Positions 1 through 16,241 of a DNA stretch of 32,253 bases are shown in pieces. Position numbers and translations under genes: made by a program. Within the stretch, counting starts at the first letter, position 1. Every line of letters starts with the position of its first letter. The notes below the pieces were generated by a model. That model did no database searches. It had not been told where the DNA came from and worked only from the letters and a program-made list of their open reading frames with translations. The DNA is from Acidimicrobiales bacterium (lineage in GTDB: Bacteria > Actinomycetota > Acidimicrobiia > Acidimicrobiales > Bog-793), in NCBI GenBank assembly GCA_035533595.1, contig DATLTN010000063.1, forward strand, positions 1 through 32,253, read 5' to 3'.

Positions 1-384
1 GCCTCCCGGCGTGGCCGCGCCGACGGCGGGCGCCGCGCGGCGGCCAGGCGCACGGTCACGCTCCGCCTCGGTCGGGTCGCAGCACAGCTCGTAGCGCGGG
101 TTCCAGAGCACGAGGCGCCCGCCCTCTGCGCCCGCGGTCCCGCGCACCGTGACCCATCTGCCCGCGGTGAGCCCGGGGACGGCGCGGCGTCCGAAGAACA
201 CGAGGTGCAGGAGGCCGCTGCCGTCGTCGAGCTCCATCTGGCAGGAGACCGAAGGGCCGCGGCGGCAGGCCGTCACCCGGCGGATCCTGCCGCTCACCTC
301 GACCCGCGTCCGCGCGATGACCTCGCAGATCCTCTTCGGGTCCGGCGGGCGCGGCTCCTCGCTCACGGAGGTCACCCTGCTCAC
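1..384 (-). CDS. OB-fold nucleic-acid-binding protein (partial, C-terminus beyond left edge)
   Basis: 128 residues are visible with no stop, so the gene continues past the left edge. The core reads as an OB-fold: a first strand VEVSGRIRRVTACRRG, then CQMELDDGSGLLHLVFFGRR, then LTAGRWVTVRGTAG and GRLVLWNPRYEL, the beta-strand pattern of small actinobacterial OB-fold proteins. The start chosen is the GTG at 384, which overlaps the kdpC stop (GTGA, 4 bases) and implies translational coupling; GTG codons at 375 and 366 are alternatives. Its role is unknown. OB-fold domains of this kind bind single-stranded nucleic acid or act as helicase or regulatory adaptors. The coupling to kdpC may simply be operon packing. 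Confidence 0.7.
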   Translation of the reverse strand, partial: MSRVTSVSEEPRPPDPKRICEVIARTRVEVSGRIRRVTACRRGPSVSCQMELDDGSGLLHLVFFGRRAVPGLTAGRWVTVRGTAGAEGGRLVLWNPRYELCCDPTEAERDRAPGRRAAPAVGAATPGG

Positions 385-1004
385 CGCAGGCTCGCCAGCG
401 CCTCATTGAGCTGGAGGACGTCGATGTAGCTGGCTCCGAGGAAGCCGAGCTCGGGGCCGTGCGTCTGCTCGGCGATGATCCGCCGCAGCGACGCCGCCGG
501 GACCCCGGTCGCGTGGGCGACCATCGGGACCTGGACGAGCGCGTCGGCGGGGCTGATGTCGGGGTCGTAGCCGCTCCCCGAGGTCGTCACGAGGTCCGGC
601 GTGGGATCGGACACGCCGAGGTGGTGCCAGTAGGCGACGAGCGCCTCGGTGTCGTCGCGCAGCGTCACCGAGCGGGGCCCGAGGTTGGTGGCCGCCGACT
701 CCCCGTCCACGCCGTTCGCCACGAGCGGGTTGTCGCCACCGGAGATGTTCTTCTTCGGGTCCGCCGCGTAGGGACCGGTGTCGTCGGGTCGCCCGTGGAA
801 GACGCAGCTCCCGATGAGGTGGCCCGAACAGCTCGCCGCCGCCCAGTTCTGACCGATGAGCGTCGAGCCCCTGGCGGTGATCGAGCCGTCCGCCTGGCTC
901 TTGAAGAGCACCTGCGAGAGCCCCGTTCCGACGAGGGCGTAGAGCAGCGTGCCGACGACGGCGATCACCGCGAAGACCAACGAGCGGCGCAGGTTGACGA
1001 GCAT
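381..1004 (-). CDS. kdpC: Potassium-transporting ATPase subunit KdpC
   Basis: 207 residues, normal for KdpC. This single-span subunit stabilises the KdpA-KdpB complex and helps ATP binding. It has an N-terminal membrane segment (about residues 8-30), then the conserved TARGSTLIGQNW block, GRPDDTGPYAAD, NLGPRS and the GSGYDPDISPADALVQV signature. Two cysteines sit between the LIGQ and GRPD motifs, a short insertion that might form an extracytoplasmic disulfide (inference). It follows kdpB with a 9-base gap and overlaps the next gene by 4 bases, so it belongs to the kdpFABC operon. Confidence 0.96.
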   Translation of the reverse strand: MLVNLRRSLVFAVIAVVGTLLYALVGTGLSQVLFKSQADGSITARGSTLIGQNWAAASCSGHLIGSCVFHGRPDDTGPYAADPKKNISGGDNPLVANGVDGESAATNLGPRSVTLRDDTEALVAYWHHLGVSDPTPDLVTTSGSGYDPDISPADALVQVPMVAHATGVPAASLRRIIAEQTHGPELGFLGASYIDVLQLNEALASLR

Positions 1005-1013
1005 GGAGTCCTC

Positions 1014-3119
1014 TCAGTACCAGTGGAGCGCGACGAGGATGAGGTCGATCAGCTTGATGAACACGAATGGCGTGACGATGCCGCCGACGCCGTAGATGAA
1101 GACGTTGCGGCGCAGGATCGCGGCCGAGCCGGCGGCGCGGAAGCGCACGCCGCGCAGCGCGAGCGGGATCAGCGCCACGATCACGAGGGCGTTGAAGATC
1201 ACCGCAGCGAGGACCGCGCTCGTCGGACTGTGCAGCTTCATCACGTTCAGCGCGTTCAGCTGCGGGTAGGTCGCGGCGAAGAGCGCGGGGATGATCGCGA
1301 AGTACTTCGCGACGTCGTTCGCGATGGAGAAGGTGGTGAGCGAGCCGCGGGTGATGAGCAGCTGCTTGCCGATCTCGACGACGTCGATGAGCTTGGTCGG
1401 GTTGGAGTCGAGGTCGACCATGTTGCCGGCCTCCTTGGCCGCGGTCGTCCCGGTGTTCATCGCCACACCGACGTCTGCCTGCGCGAGCGCGGGGGCGTCG
1501 TTGGTCCCGTCGCCGGTCATCGCGACGAGCTTCCCGCCCTCCTGCTCGGCGCGGATCAGCTCGAGCTTGGCCTCCGGCGTCGCCTCGGCGAGGTAGTCGT
1601 CGACGCCGGCCTCCTGCGCGATCGCCGCCGCCGTGAGCGGGTTGTCGCCGGTGATCATCACCGTGCGGATCCCCATCTGGCGCATCTCGGCGAACTTCTC
1701 GGAGATCCCCTGCTTCACCACGTCCTTCAGCTCGATCACGCCGAGCACGAGCGGCCCGTCGGCGACGACGAGCGGCGTCGCCCCCGAACGCGAGACCCGC
1801 TCGACGATCGGGTCGAGGTCGCCGGGGATCGTGCCGCCCCGTTCGGTGACCCAGCGCTTCACCGACTCCGCGGCGCCCTTCCTGATCTCGCGCCCGTCGA
1901 GGTCGAGGCCGGACATGCGCGTCGTCGCCGAGAAGGGGACGAAGGTGTGACCCTCGCCGAGGGCGCGCTCGCGGATGTCGAAGCGCTCCTTCGCGAGGAC
2001 GACGATGCTCCGGCCCTCCGGCGTCTCGTCCGCGAGCGAGGCGAGCTGCGCGGCCCCGGCGAGCTCCTCCTCTCCGTGCCCCCCGACGGGGAGGAAGGCA
2101 GAGGCCATGCGGTTGCCGAGGGTGATCGTCCCCGTCTTGTCGAGGAGCAGGGTCTGGACGTCGCCCGCCGCCTCGACGGCGCGCCCCGACATCGCGAGCA
2201 CGTTGCGCTGCACGAGGCGGTCCATGCCGGCGATGCCGATCGCCGACAGCAGGGCGCCGATCGTCGTCGGGATCAGGCAGACGAGGAGCGAGACCAAGAT
2301 GACGACCGAGACCGCGGAGCCGGCGTAGTGGGCGAAGGGCTGCAGCACCACGACCACCGGGATGAAGACGATCGTCAGCACGGCGAGCAGGATGGTGAGC
2401 GCGATCTCGTTCGGGGTCTTCTGGCGGTTGGCGCCCTCGACGAGACCGATCATGCGGTCGAGGAAGGTCCTGCCCCGCTCGGCGGTGATCTGCACGAGGA
2501 TCCGGTCCGAGAGCACCTTCGTGCCGCCCGTCACCGCGGAGCGGTCGCCGCCGGACTCGCGGATCACCGGCGCCGACTCGCCGGTGATCGCCGACTCGTC
2601 GACCGAGGCGATGCCCTCGACGATCTCGCCGTCGGAGGGGATCACGTCCCCCGCCTCGCAGACGACGGTGTCGCCCTTCGCGAGCTCGGCGGCGGCGACC
2701 CGCTCCTCTGTCCCGTCCGAGCGCAGCCGGCGGGCGAGGGTCTCCGAGCGCATCCGGCGCAACGTCTCAGCCTGGGCCTTGCCGCGACCCTCGGCCATCG
2801 CCTCCGCGAAGTTCGCGAAGAGCACGGTGAGCAGCAGCCAGATCGTGATCGACCAGTCGAACAGGCCGGGGTGGGCGATCGACTCGATGAGGGTGACGAC
2901 GGTGCCGACGAGCACCACGAACATCACCGGGTTCTTCAGCTGGGTACGCGGGTCGAGCTTGCGGACGGCGTCGACGACGGAGTGCCGGAGGATGTCGCGG
3001 TCGAACAGACCCCTCGCCTGCGCCACACCGTGCGCCATCGTCGGGCCCGGCGTCGCGGCCCGCTCCTTCAGCTGGACCGGCTCATTGGTTGTGCTCATCT
3101 GCACCTCGGGACGATCCAT
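1014..3119 (-). CDS. kdpB: Potassium-transporting P-type ATPase subunit KdpB
   Basis: About 701 residues. This is the catalytic P-type ATPase subunit of the KdpFABC potassium pump. Visible motifs are the actuator loop [10 protein letters not shown], the phosphorylation site [12 protein letters not shown], the nucleotide-binding [10 protein letters not shown], and the hinge [19 protein letters not shown] with [20 protein letters not shown]. There are hydrophobic segments at both ends and around the middle pair. The chosen ATG at 3119 overlaps the kdpA stop (TGATG). A second ATG at 3098, with a GAGG Shine-Dalgarno five bases upstream, would give 694 residues and is an equally good start. A much longer open frame runs upstream opposite kdpA but is only a shadow. 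Confidence 0.97.
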
Positions 3120-4819
3120 CAGAAGTACTTTCCGTGGCTCAGCTGCTCGACGATCGGACCGAGCGAGACGGCGGGGAAGAAGGTCAGCCCGCCGATGATC
3201 ACGATCACGCCGATCGTCAGTCCGACGAACATCGTGTTGTCGGTGCGGAAGGTGCCGAGCGAGGCCGGGACGACGTGCTTCGCGGCGAGCGCCCCGCCGA
3301 GCGCGAGGGCCGGGATCATGATCCCGAAGCGCCCGATCAGCATGTCGATCGCCCCGATCACGTTGTAGAAGGGCGAGTTCCCCGTCAGCCCGCCGAAGGC
3401 GGATCCGTTGTTGTTGCCCTGGGAGGTGAGGGCGTAGAGGATCTCGCTGAAGCCGTGCGGCCCGGCGTTGGCGGGGCCGATCCTCCCGGCGTGCACCGAG
3501 ACGGCGATCGCGGTCACGACGAGCACCGTGAGCGGCATCACGAGGGCCCCGAGGCCGGCGAGCTTGATCTCTGAGGCCTGGACCTTCTTCCCGAGGTACT
3601 CCGGTGTTCGGCCGATCATCAGGCCGCCGATGAACACCGCGATCAGCGCGTAGAGGAGGATCGTGTAGAGCCCGCTGCCGGTCCCGCCGGGCGTCACCTC
3701 CCCGAGCATCATCCCCGTGAGCAGGCCGAAGCCGCCGATCGGCGTGAACGAGTCGTAGGAGGCGTCGGCCGAGCCGGTCGAGGTGTTCGTCGAGGCGACG
3801 CCGAACAGTGCCGTCGTGGTGTCGCCGAAGCGCACCTCCTTGCCCTCGGTGTTCCCGACCTGCTGGCCGGCAGCGGTGGCCACCCCGGCCGCCACGACCG
3901 CCGGGTTGTTCTGGTGCTCGGCGAAGCTCGTGAAGCCGACCCAGCTCCCAAAGATGATCGCCATCGCCGCGAGGAGGGCGACGCCGTGGCGAACCGAGCC
4001 GACCATCTTCCCGAAGGTGTAGGTCAGCGCGAATGGGATGCAGAGCAGGAGGAAGATCGACAGCCAGTTGGTGAGCCCGGTCGGGTTCTCGAAGCTCGTC
4101 GCCGAGTTCTGGTCGAGGAAGCCGCCGCCGTTCGTGCCGAGCTGCTTGATCGCCTCCATGAAGGCGATCGGGCCACGGGCGATCGTCTGGGTGACGCCGT
4201 TCAGCGAGTCGTGGACGACGACGGTGCCGGCGAGGGTCTGCACGCCGCCGGAGGCGACGAAGACGATCCCGGCGAGGAAGGCGCCCGGAGCGAGGACGTA
4301 GAGCAGGCAGCGGGTCACGTCGACCCAGAAGTTGCCGATCGTCGCGCTGCCCCGCCGCGAGAAGCCGCGCACCATCGCGATCGCGACGGCGATGCCGACC
4401 GCCGGGGAGACGAACTGCTGCACCGTGAGCGAGGTGATCTGGGAGAAGTACGACATCGTCGTCTCGCCGCCGTAGTTCTGCCAGTTCGTGTTGGTGAGGA
4501 AGCTGGTGGCGGTGTTGAAGCTGAGCGCCGGCGGCACCGCCCCGAGGTGCTGCGGGTTGAGCGGCAGGGAGCCCTGCAGGCGCAGCAGCGCGTAGGTGAA
4601 GACGAACGAGACCCCCGAGAAGATCACCAGCGAGCCGGCGTAGCGCTGCCAGGACTGCTCGTGCTCGGGGCTCGTGCCGAGCAGCCGGTAGACGGGTCGC
4701 TCGAGGAAGGCGAGGAAGCGGAGGCGGCCCTCGAAGACCGCCGCCATGTAGGAGCCGAGGAAGCGCCAGGCGAGGCCGAGCGCGACGACGAGCGTGACGA
4801 TCGTCCAGAAGAACGCCAC
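3119..4819 (-). CDS. kdpA: Potassium-transporting ATPase subunit KdpA
   Basis: 566 residues, full length for KdpA, the SKT-superfamily channel-like subunit that selects and translocates potassium. Multiple hydrophobic spans are evident. The selectivity-filter regions are recognisable: [39 protein letters not shown], a central segment, and [19 protein letters not shown]. The GTG start at 4819 abuts the TAG stop of kdpF directly, with no intergenic base, so translation is probably coupled. Downstream it overlaps kdpB by one base. Confidence 0.97.
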
Positions 4820-4909
4820 CTAGAACCACTCCGGCTTGAACATCGCCACACCGAGGTAGACGAAGACGAGGAACGAGACGACGAGCAGGACCGCCTGAAC
4901 CGCGCTCAT
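4820..4909 (-). CDS. kdpF: Small membrane subunit KdpF
   Basis: A 29-residue hydrophobic peptide, starting [13 protein letters not shown] and ending [11 protein letters not shown], is the expected size and pattern for KdpF, the lipid-like stabiliser of the KdpABC complex with one transmembrane helix. It lies immediately before kdpA (TAG followed directly by GTG). Its ATG overlaps the stop of a further small upstream ORF (ATGA). It is too short for ordinary ORF calling. The charged Lys and the aromatic residues at the C-terminus sit where KdpF homologues have them. Confidence 0.9.
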
Positions 4910-4989
4910 ACGTGCTCCAGCCCCTTCACGAGGCCGAGCATCAGCACGATGAAGAGGGCCACGCCGATGATGCTGAGGAAATCACCCAT
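4906..4989 (-). CDS. 27-residue single-span membrane peptide at head of kdp operon
   Basis: An ATG at 4989 opens a 27-codon ORF that begins [18 protein letters not shown] and ends VKGLEHV. It is a single hydrophobic helix followed by a short basic/acidic tail. Its TGA overlaps the ATG of kdpF (ATGA), as expected for a translated, coupled gene. No clear Shine-Dalgarno is visible, so it might be translated from a short or leaderless transcript. It is not KdpF itself, which follows it. It could be an additional small subunit or regulator of the pump, or a leader that sets up translation of kdpF. The function is not known to me. Confidence 0.6.
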
Positions 4990-5114
4990 GTGGCGATCGT
5001 GTGCCCCGGCCGCCTAACGGCGTGCTCAACAGATGCAGAATCGTCTGAATAATTCCTAACGGTGGCCCCCGATCCGGGGTCGACATGTGTATGTGTGTGT
5101 TCCGCTGACCGAGA
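4990..5114. promoter_or_regulatory. Divergent kdp control region with direct repeat CCTAACGG
   Basis: This 125-base gap separates the minus-strand kdp structural operon from plus-strand kdpDE. The octamer CCTAACGG occurs twice in the same orientation, at 5013-5020 and 5055-5062. They are 42 bases apart, about four helical turns, which suits tandem binding by an OmpR-type response regulator such as KdpE. The stretch between them is AT-richer than its surroundings. No confident -10/-35 pair was identified on either strand. Assigning the repeats to KdpE is inference. Confidence 0.4.
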
Positions 5115-6590
5115 ATGGTGGCAATGCAGCGCAGGCTGATCGGCTCGCTCGTCGGCGTCCTCGCCGCCGTCGCCGTCGGCGCGCTGATGCTGCCGATCCG
5201 CTCGCACATCGCGATCGCGACCGCGGCGCTCGTGCTGATCATCCCCGTCGTCGCGGGCGTCACCGTCGGCGGCTGGGTCGCCGGCCTCGTGAGCGTGCTC
5301 TCCGGCTTCGTCGTCTACGACTACGCCTTCATCCCGCCGTACTACACGCTCACCGTCGGGAGCGCGGACAACTGGGCGGCGCTCGTCGTCTACGCGGTCG
5401 TGATGACCGTCGTCGCCCGCCTCGTCGCCCACCTCCATGACGCCGAGGCCGCCGCGACCTCACGGGCCGAGACCGCCCGCCACCTCCTCGACCTCTCCGA
5501 GCTGCTGCTCACCGAGTCCCCGGCGCTCGGGCCGGCTGTCGTCGCCTCGATACGGGACGCCTTCGACATCGAGGGGGTCACCCTCGTGCAGTCGGTCGCC
5601 GGTCGCCTGGAGGCCGTCGCCTCGGCGGGGGCACCGATCTCGCGCGAACAGCTGAGCCGGCTGCGCCCCGAGGCGCACCTCCCCGTGCCGCTCACCACCG
5701 GCGCCGCACAGGACACGATCCAGACGCTCGCGCTCGCCTCCTCGGGGCGCCCCGTCGGCCTCCTCGTGCTGAAGAACTCCCCGAGCTCGAGGGCGGTCCG
5801 CGAGGCCCTCCCGATCCTCGCCAACCACCTCGCGATCGCGCTCGAGCGCACCGCGCTGCAGGAGCGGGCGCACCGCGCCGAGCTGCTCGAGGAGATCGAC
5901 CGCCTCCGCCAGGCACTCGTCGGCGCGATCTCCCATGACCTGCGCACCCCGCTCGCGACGATCAAGGTGGCCTCCTCGACGCTCGCGCTGCGCGCCGGGA
6001 CGCTCCCCGCCGGCGAGCTCGCCGAGCTGCACGACCTCATCGACCAGCAGGCCGACCGCCTCACCCGCCTCGTGAACAACCTGCTCGACATGACCCGCAT
6101 CCAGACCGGCGCCCTCGAGGTGCACCGGCGGCCGGCCGCGCTCCGCGACCTCATCGCCGACGCCCTCGGCGGGCTCGCCTCGGCGCTCGGCGACCGGGTC
6201 GTCGAGGTCGTCGCCCCCGAGGCGCTCCCCGAGGCGGACGCCGACCCCCTGCTCATCGGCCAGGTGCTCGCCAACCTGCTCGACAACGCCAACCGCCACG
6301 CCCCGCCCGGCACGCCGATCACCGTGGAGGTCGCCGCCGAGGGCGGTGAGCTCACCGTCGCCGTCGACGACCGCGGCGCGGGGGTGCCCGTCGAGGAGCG
6401 CGAAGCGATCTTCGAGACCTTCGTCCGCTTCGACACCGGGGGCCGCTCGGGTCTCGGCCTCGCCATCGCCAAGGCCTTCGTCGAGGCACACGGCAACCGG
6501 ATCTGGGTGGAGGAGGCGGTGGGCGGTGGCGCGCGCTTCGTCTTCACCCTCCCCGAGGCTCCTCCCCTCGACGGCGGGCCGCAGCCGTGA
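5115..6590 (+). CDS. kdpD: KdpD-type sensor histidine kinase lacking the N-terminal KdpD/Usp domains
   Basis: 491 residues against roughly 850-900 for canonical KdpD. It starts directly in the DUF4118 four-helix membrane domain (about residues 5-105, with the VYDYAFIPPYYTLTV turn), followed by a GAF-like domain (about 120-245). Then come HisKA with the phospho-accepting His274 in AISHDLRTPLATIK, and the HATPase domain with N-box NLLDNANRHAPP, G1 DDRGAGVP and G2 SGLGLAIAKAF. The cytoplasmic N-terminal KdpD and universal-stress-protein domains are absent and not encoded nearby. ATG 5115 and ATG 5124 are both possible starts. It overlaps kdpE by 4 bases (GTGA). Confidence 0.92.
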   Translation: MVAMQRRLIGSLVGVLAAVAVGALMLPIRSHIAIATAALVLIIPVVAGVTVGGWVAGLVSVLSGFVVYDYAFIPPYYTLTVGSADNWAALVVYAVVMTVVARLVAHLHDAEAAATSRAETARHLLDLSELLLTESPALGPAVVASIRDAFDIEGVTLVQSVAGRLEAVASAGAPISREQLSRLRPEAHLPVPLTTGAAQDTIQTLALASSGRPVGLLVLKNSPSSRAVREALPILANHLAIALERTALQERAHRAELLEEIDRLRQALVGAISHDLRTPLATIKVASSTLALRAGTLPAGELAELHDLIDQQADRLTRLVNNLLDMTRIQTGALEVHRRPAALRDLIADALGGLASALGDRVVEVVAPEALPEADADPLLIGQVLANLLDNANRHAPPGTPITVEVAAEGGELTVAVDDRGAGVPVEEREAIFETFVRFDTGGRSGLGLAIAKAFVEAHGNRIWVEEAVGGGARFVFTLPEAPPLDGGPQP

Positions 6591-7291
6591 CCAAGGTCCT
6601 CGTGATCGACGACGACGCCGCGCTGCTGCGCGCGCTGCGCCTCGTCCTGCCGCACGGCGGCTTCGAGGTCCTCGCGGCGTCGACCGGCGAGCAGGGTCTA
6701 CAGGCGACCGCGCTGCACGCCCCCGATCTCGTGGTGCTCGACCTCGGCCTCCCCGACATCGACGGGGTCGAGGTCTGCCGCCGCATCCGGGAGTGGAGCG
6801 ACGTCCCGATCATCGTCCTCTCGGCCGCCGACGCCGAGCAGCGCAAGGTCACCGCGCTCGACGCGGGCGCCGACGACTACGTGACGAAGCCCTTCGGGAT
6901 GGCCGAGCTCGAAGCGCGCCTGCGCGCCGCGCTGCGCCACCGCCGCCCCGACGGCGCCGAAGCCGCCGCCGAGGTCACGGTCGGCCCGCTGCGGGTCGAC
7001 CTCGTGCACCGCCAGGCCGACGTCGACGGGGCGCCGCTGCGGCTGACGGCGCGCGAGCTCGACCTCCTCGCCTACCTCGCGCGCCACGCCGGCAAGGTGA
7101 GCACCCATCAGATGATCCTCGAGGCGGTGTGGGGCGGCCGCTACACCCGCGAGACCCAGTACCTTCACGCCTACGTGCACCGGCTGCGGGAGAAGCTGCA
7201 GGGGAGCGGGGTCCGCATCGAGACGAGCCCCGGGATCGGCTACCTGCTGGCGGAGAGCCCGACGCCCGGGGAGGGGCCCGCCGCGCCGTAG
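6587..7291 (+). CDS. kdpE: KdpE-type response regulator (OmpR family)
   Basis: 234 residues. The receiver domain (about 1-118) has acidic pocket D8-D9-D10, phospho-acceptor Asp52 in VVLDLGLPDIDG, and Lys101 in VTKPFG. The C-terminal winged-helix DNA-binding domain (about 130-225) shows LTARELDLLAYLARHAGKV and the YLHAYVHRLREKL recognition region. The GTG start overlaps the kinase stop by 4 bases. It most probably activates the divergent kdp operon in response to potassium limitation or turgor stress. It ends 9 bases from the convergent ABC gene stop, with no obvious terminator between them. Confidence 0.94.
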   Translation: MTKVLVIDDDAALLRALRLVLPHGGFEVLAASTGEQGLQATALHAPDLVVLDLGLPDIDGVEVCRRIREWSDVPIIVLSAADAEQRKVTALDAGADDYVTKPFGMAELEARLRAALRHRRPDGAEAAAEVTVGPLRVDLVHRQADVDGAPLRLTARELDLLAYLARHAGKVSTHQMILEAVWGGRYTRETQYLHAYVHRLREKLQGSGVRIETSPGIGYLLAESPTPGEGPAAP

Positions 7292-16136: not shown

Positions 16137-16141
16137 GGCCA

Positions 16142-16241
16142 CATCATCCAGAGCGGCTGAGGGACGGGCCCGTCGACGCCGCGGCAACCAGTGATCCGCA
16201 TGCGCGGGTTGCAAGGTGCCAATGCCCGATCGATGAGGAGG
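16142..16241 (+). promoter_or_regulatory. SAM-I (S-box) riboswitch
   Basis: The conserved S-box core is readable. P1 pairs TCATC (16144-16148) with GATGA (16232-16236). After CAGAG, P2 pairs GCGGC (16153-16157) with GCCGC (16178-16182), with the kink-turn TGAGGGA between. GGCAACC (16183-16189) is the invariant J2/3 block. P3 pairs CCGC with GCGG around 16196-16207, and AAGGTGCCAATGCC (16213-16226) is the P4 region. The Shine-Dalgarno AGGAGG (16236-16241) begins on the last P1 base, so SAM binding should hide it and block translation; no separate terminator is seen. It controls the two genes that follow. Confidence 0.93.

Follow-up and report, generated by a model that had tools for sequence, protein, structure and literature searches.

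The kdp operon of an Acidimicrobiales bacterium opens with a 27-codon gene, here called SM, that belongs to a conserved family of small membrane proteins and probably encodes, in addition to KdpF, another accessory protein of the Kdp potassium pump that consists of a single helix. That SM is coding and that it is linked to kdp, both of which are read from sequence, are near certain; that its product binds the pump and acts on it is what we infer.

The window, that is the whole stretch of 32,253 nucleotides that was analysed, carries the operon on its minus strand in the order SM-kdpF-kdpA-kdpB-kdpC, with the kdpD-like and kdpE-like genes diverging from it on the plus strand (Table 1). The original prediction had placed a 27-codon hydrophobic ORF upstream of kdpF, overlapping it by ATGA in a small-ORF-F-A-B-C order. 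The ORF is present, its overlap with kdpF is exact, and the Pfam matches of kdpF, kdpA, kdpB and kdpC bear out the order. The best 19-residue Kyte-Doolittle mean of the product is 2.59, and a search of the window's own genome returned a single occurrence of the sequence. Elsewhere in the window a SAM riboswitch (RF00162, 63.6 bits) was detected at 16141-16239 on the plus strand.

Table 1 Features of the kdp region in the window
Feature	Position	Strand	Basis and remarks
SM, small membrane protein gene, 27 codons	4906..4989	-	Conserved family, purifying selection, kdpF overlap; ATG at 4989, stop ends at 4906; SM stop and kdpF start share ATGA (4906-4909)
kdpF, 29 aa	4820..4909	-	Pfam PF09604 E 9.4e-07; NCBIfam TIGR02115 E 1.2e-4, below the TIGR02115 cut-off
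kdpA, 566 aa	3119..4819	-	PF03814 E 1e-211; GTG start at 4819 directly after the kdpF stop
kdpB	1014..3118	-	PF00122 and PF00702 in frame 1014-4829; stop 1014, start somewhere below 3119
kdpC	381..1004	-	PF02669 E 3.8e-39
kdpD-like sensor kinase, divergent	5115..6590, start not fixed	+	PF13493, PF00512, PF02518
kdpE-like response regulator	6587..7291	+	PF00072, PF00486
Predicted -10-like element, +1 on the SM ATG	4990..5000	-	A-11 = 5000, T-7 = 4996, C-1 = 4990
TTxA direct repeats	5014..5049	-	About -60, -40/-39 and -28 relative to the start of SM, just upstream of the -10-like box; conserved in 74 close-relative loci

A first-pass iterated profile identified a homologous ORF in 98 of 108 KdpA-selected loci, the window being counted twice. 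A total of 260 loci were located and 226 distinct kdpA loci were kept; those dropped were L012, whose sequence contains N, L038, which has just 146 nt of upstream DNA, loci without a kdpA start and duplicates identical around the kdpA start. A re-trained profile (E<=0.01) placed SM next to kdpF/kdpA in 177 of the 226, a count for which the profile had been trained on the loci it then counted, and the controls gave one reverse-strand locus and no match in 1130 shuffled regions. With the seed-only profile 160 loci were recovered at E<=1e-3, of which 36 rows were the seeds. KdpF was detected in 215 of the 226 loci, and the two occurred together in 174. Because several loci of the profile class 'F only' carry a divergent hydrophobic ORF at the SM position (for example L070, L074, L076, L131, L160, L247, L256, L260 and L263), the figure of 177 is probably a lower bound. 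SM-sized hydrophobic ORFs were also observed upstream of kdpF in the plasmid kdp loci of Parabacteroides and Listeria (L163 and L227); they lie beyond the reach of the profile and are possible far members.

Whole-genome searches addressed how closely the family keeps to kdp. When profile A2 (36 rows) was run against 249 Pseudomonadota genomes, 29 genomes each gave a single match at E<=1e-3, and every one of these 29 matches adjoins kdpA; one of these genomes (G255) had supplied a seed row. Applied to 198 Actinomycetota genomes, profile A1 yielded four matches below 1e-3, one of them the window's own, and all four lie beside kdpA. The 23 weaker A1 matches up to E 0.1 in Actinomycetota look like chance hits, mostly in long frames, although one falls within 1 kb of the G245 kdp locus. 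These untrained profiles are less sensitive in whole genomes, recovering 29 of the 54 Pseudomonadota carriers. Across unrelated genomes the SM matches at this threshold lie beside kdpF/kdpA and not elsewhere, as expected of a kdp operon component, and on sequence comparison the family is specific to kdp loci in several phyla.

With genomes sampled by KdpA, 80 Pseudomonadota have the protein; 78 of these could be assessed, and 54 of the 78 carry SM, counting one locus per genome and with 9 of the 78 represented by a locus that the SM profile itself had retrieved. In Actinomycetota, 30 kdpA loci were sampled, the window's among them, and SM occurs in 17 of the 28 that could be assessed. It occurs in 72 of 75 assessable loci in the genome-contig set (80 fetched), and in the relatives set all 30 loci show the SM-F-A arrangement. 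Plasmid records with SM come, among others, from Rhizobium phaseoli, Sinorhizobium fredii, S. meliloti, Acetobacter, Paracoccus and Sphingomonas as well as Deinococcus radiodurans, D. psychrotolerans, D. ficus and Burkholderia. Thirteen plasmid loci bear SM, and among the 11 that are annotated, in a PLSDB gene table that is incomplete, SM is listed in none and kdpF in six. The profile did not find SM at the one locus examined for each of E. coli (L233), Klebsiella (L229), Duffyella (L232), Lactiplantibacillus (L226) and Halobacterium (L166), nor, among the 226 loci, in several further clades that retain the kdp locus. As clades without SM keep kdp, it is not universally needed. On a KdpA tree (FastTree, 226 rows, 178 counted carriers) SM presence changes at least 16 times, gain and loss being indistinguishable; L231, of profile class 'F only', was counted as a carrier by eye in this tree only. 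Some of these changes are probably divergent copies missed by the profile.

Members of the family share a simple plan, M-x-D followed by a single transmembrane helix that bears a Phe at its centre and then by [DE]-R-[LVI]. Over the 177 rows D3 is conserved in 96%, F13 in 70%, an acid at position 25 in 85% and R26 in 82%, and the end is aliphatic. The original prediction had proposed a search upstream of kdpF for conserved peptides starting MGDF; the conserved family was found, but its conserved start is M-[AGMS]-D rather than MGDF. Residues 2-5 contain no K/R and 160 D/E over these rows, while the last six residues contain 214 K/R and 153 D/E. The positive-inside rule predicts membrane protein orientation, and because the K/R residues are absent from positions 2-5 and abundant in the last six, the N-terminus of SM is expected outside and its tail inside. 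The same N-out/C-in topology is that of KdpF.

Comparisons with known families gave no consistent assignment. The window's SM matched no family in Pfam or NCBIfam up to E 10. For the profile members the matches were weak, scattered and inconsistent: the best E was 0.0011 in Pfam (Deltameth_res, 2/39), 0.02 in NCBIfam (5/39) and 0.002 in PHROGs (2/36), and a comparison with the PDB returned one match, at E 0.71. The possibility that SM is a KdpF paralogue or a PF09604 member was considered and rejected: there was no PF09604 or TIGR02115 match, the KdpF family was absent among the matches of the 39 A1 rows up to E 1, and profile-profile alignment of SM with KdpF (hhalign) gave a probability of 4.6%. 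No ORF matching both the SM and the KdpF profiles, as a fused protein would, was found among the surveyed loci.

The substitution pattern of SM was analysed by the Nei-Gojobori method in a set of 80 close-relative copies, of which 78 were usable (L067 and L101 were dropped). Judged by their titles or kinship, most of these copies are Acidimicrobiia or actinobacterial MAGs; they also include three Dormiibacterota, one titled Saccharibacteria and two titled only 'bacterium'. When the pairs, which are non-independent, were sorted by identity into three bins of 34, 391 and 1281, SM gave dN/dS ratios of 0.254, 0.314 and 0.321, and kdpF was similar in the same bins at 0.26, 0.347 and 0.343. Frame +1 of the SM region gave 0.94-1.11 and frame +2 gave 1.66-2.53 for the same copies, while the 81 nt upstream of SM, taken as a control, gave 0.83-1.09; the control is ungapped and near saturation beyond the closest bin, so that only the closest bin offers a fair comparison. 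Even so, the frames differ strongly from one another. The amino acid conservation with synonymous bias in relatives that the original prediction had named as its test is evident in these ratios. The xTGA stop/start overlap is kept in 76 of the 78 copies.

Signals for translation differ between the close relatives and the remaining copies. A start could be assigned to SM in 74 of the 77 close copies and in 85 of the 100 others. A Shine-Dalgarno core stands at the right distance before SM in 71 of the 85 more distant loci as against 12% of control windows, whereas the close relatives display no enrichment (12/74 versus 14% of control windows). A laxer, uncontrolled motif list had given 23 of 78 close relatives and was discarded in favour of the controlled count. 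In the 74 close-relative loci there is instead a pattern of A-11 in 74%, T-7 in 81% and C-1 in 87%, with T-12 not conserved. The spacing of this -10-like box suggests that transcripts of the close-relative SM genes would begin at the ATG and be leaderless, and the TTxA repeats upstream of it (Table 1) are a possible KdpE operator.

These results bear on whether SM might be a chance ORF or a conserved non-coding element. Its short length (84 nt) in GC-rich DNA, as well as the lack of Shine-Dalgarno enrichment in close relatives, would suit such an origin; however, the purifying selection is frame-specific, the shuffled and reverse-strand controls were nearly empty, and the Shine-Dalgarno core is enriched in the more distant copies. 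We consider an origin of this kind extremely improbable.

The order of the genes varies among loci. In D. psychrotolerans (L273), D. ficus (L274) and D. radiodurans (L162) the order is kdpB-SM-kdpF-kdpA. The SM gene of D. psychrotolerans begins 8 nt downstream of the kdpB stop and overlaps kdpF by GTGA, kdpF in turn overlaps kdpA, and kdpC follows kdpA; D. ficus has the same order with looser spacing. In D. radiodurans some 450 nt, holding an annotated hypothetical gene on the opposite strand, separate kdpB from SM, and a gap of this length makes a separate promoter for SM possible there. The order kdpF-SM-kdpA occurs in L181, L191, Burkholderia arboris and B. stagnalis (L275, L276), and SM directly precedes kdpA, with no kdpF detected, in L151 and L267, the SM of L267 following what by eye is the end of kdpB. 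In L146, of profile class 'SM only', an apparent kdpB end (by eye) and SM are followed by a divergent small hydrophobic ORF, MVKEVWGPLFLVFFVTFVLSLMYLYQG, which occupies the kdpF position before kdpA and is a possible KdpF replacement. In four pseudomonadotal loci (L171, L172, L174 and L178) an extra hydrophobic ORF of about 30-40 aa, such as MITLVEVVLAFVVTSALLIALIRLLLPAKKS in L178, was also seen to separate kdpF from kdpA; by eye it is unrelated to SM.

Such variation is informative about a leader-peptide role, in which translation of SM itself, not its product, would control kdpF translation or attenuation. SM is the first cistron in the window, lies upstream of kdpF in 170 of 226 loci and is coupled to kdpF by ATGA, and Rho attenuation has been proposed for Caulobacter kdp (PMC8552747). 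On the other hand, SM sits after kdpB within the operon in Deinococcus and after kdpF in Burkholderia, L181 and L191, and is not always the first, promoter-proximal ORF; D3, F13 and [DE]R[LVI] are conserved over 177 rows; and the synonymous sites change faster than the amino acid sites. A pure leader-peptide role was largely rejected and is very unlikely. Because the place of SM relative to kdpF and kdpB varies, it is the SM protein, and not a leader position, that is conserved.

The original prediction had suggested that the potassium pump might have here a small subunit or a regulator that had escaped recognition, and this stands as the best-supported reading in view of the specific linkage (29/29 beside kdpA) and the order variants. 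KdpF stabilises or tunes the pump in E. coli, and FXYD proteins and phospholamban do likewise for other P-type pumps. With KdpF as precedent, we propose that SM would be made in step with KdpF and KdpA through the overlapping cistrons and would insert with its acidic N-terminus (Asp3) outside and its [DE]-R-[LVI] tail inside. Its Phe-containing helix might then pack against the membrane part of KdpA/KdpB and so stabilise or tune the Kdp pump.

Another conceivable partner is the KdpD sensor kinase, which SM could regulate in the membrane as MgrB regulates PhoQ, without being a pump subunit. The kdpDE genes diverge next door in the window, a Pfam search found no PF02702 N-terminal domain in the window's kdpD-like kinase, for which a helper peptide is therefore conceivable, and peptides acting on sensor kinases are an established theme (PMC3618439). 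Against this, a hand count found a PF02702-containing KdpD in 52 of 54 SM-bearing and in 24 of 24 SM-lacking assessable Pseudomonadota genomes, and since carriers and non-carriers alike possess it, SM presence does not follow KdpD in Pseudomonadota. Moreover, SM tracks kdpF/kdpA and not kdpD, and its overlap is with kdpF; we find regulation of KdpD unlikely. The window's kdpD itself looks split, a separate PF02702 protein being encoded on another contig of the same genome (G000:C45:50207-50833, minus strand, open frame of 447 aa). A further alternative is that SM assists the assembly or insertion of KdpA/KdpF and departs once the pump is complete. The operon packing and the absence of SM from some clades would fit this role; nothing points to it specifically, and although sequence data do not separate it from a stable subunit, we regard it as quite unlikely.

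Solved KdpFABC structures are from E. coli, whose enzyme is the structural model for the complex, and these structures could not show SM because it was not found at the E. coli locus examined. KdpFABC is described as a four-subunit complex (PMC10654040). Outside a few clades including E. coli, the Kdp pump may instead be a five-part complex in which SM, as fifth subunit, would set activity or K+ affinity, a proposal to which we give slightly less than even weight. In this reading the subunit would have been missed because the model organism is without SM and because annotation skips 27-codon genes. The standard picture of the pump may accordingly be missing a part, its gene being widely conserved yet absent from the annotations seen and from the E. 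coli locus examined; should SM be a subunit, the pump mechanism and its inhibition would need re-examination in SM-bearing species. For annotators, the SM profile is usable to recognise a gene unlisted in the annotated records examined.

No description of the SM protein was found in a full-text literature search that covered few subscription papers. Treuner-Lange et al. (1997) reportedly noted small hydrophobic ORFs, orfZ and orfY, in Clostridium acetobutylicum. The order kdpZYABCXDE cited for that species places Z and Y in front of kdpA (PMC5401905). The orfZ/KdpZ gene may be the first sighting of SM and, if homologous, would be an earlier sighting without family or function. According to the same source, kdpFABC of Mycobacterium smegmatis (leader of MSMEG_5391) has its TSS 120 nt before the kdpF GTG, the stretch between being called a long 5'-UTR (PMC5401905). 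In two loci of our set (L135 and L137), from mycobacteria-like genomes sharing one genus code (G154 and G096), the distance from the SM start to the kdpF GTG is 80 nt, and GGAATGGAGAC stands just upstream of SM in L135 (G154). PPE-gene matches number 49 in G154, which marks it as mycobacteria-like, 6 in G096 and 79 in the mycobacteria-like G208, the richest of that genus code, whose locus (L131) has only a divergent ORF at the SM place, lacking the [DE]R tail and below the profile threshold. By analogy with the spacing in L135 and L137, the 120-nt '5'-UTR' of M. smegmatis may well encode SM. The Caulobacter kdpF leader is about 100 nt (PMC8552747), and judged by length alone both leaders are long enough for SM. 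If SM is a subunit, these published kdp '5'-UTRs' of 120 nt and about 100 nt may be coding.

Compared with known systems, SM resembles the tiny single-pass partners of large membrane machines, such as FXYD, phospholamban, AcrZ, CydX and MgtS, in general plan. It has no sequence link to any of them, the best MgtS-like match being at E 0.09 in 1 of 39 members. KdpF (PF09604/TIGR02115), the 29-aa subunit of KdpFABC, differs from SM in its tail, where PE[KRW]F is common as opposed to [DE]R[LVI] in SM, and the two sequences are unrelated by profile tests. In other respects SM is like KdpF, being a protein of similar size with a single helix, encoded in the same operon and often left unannotated.
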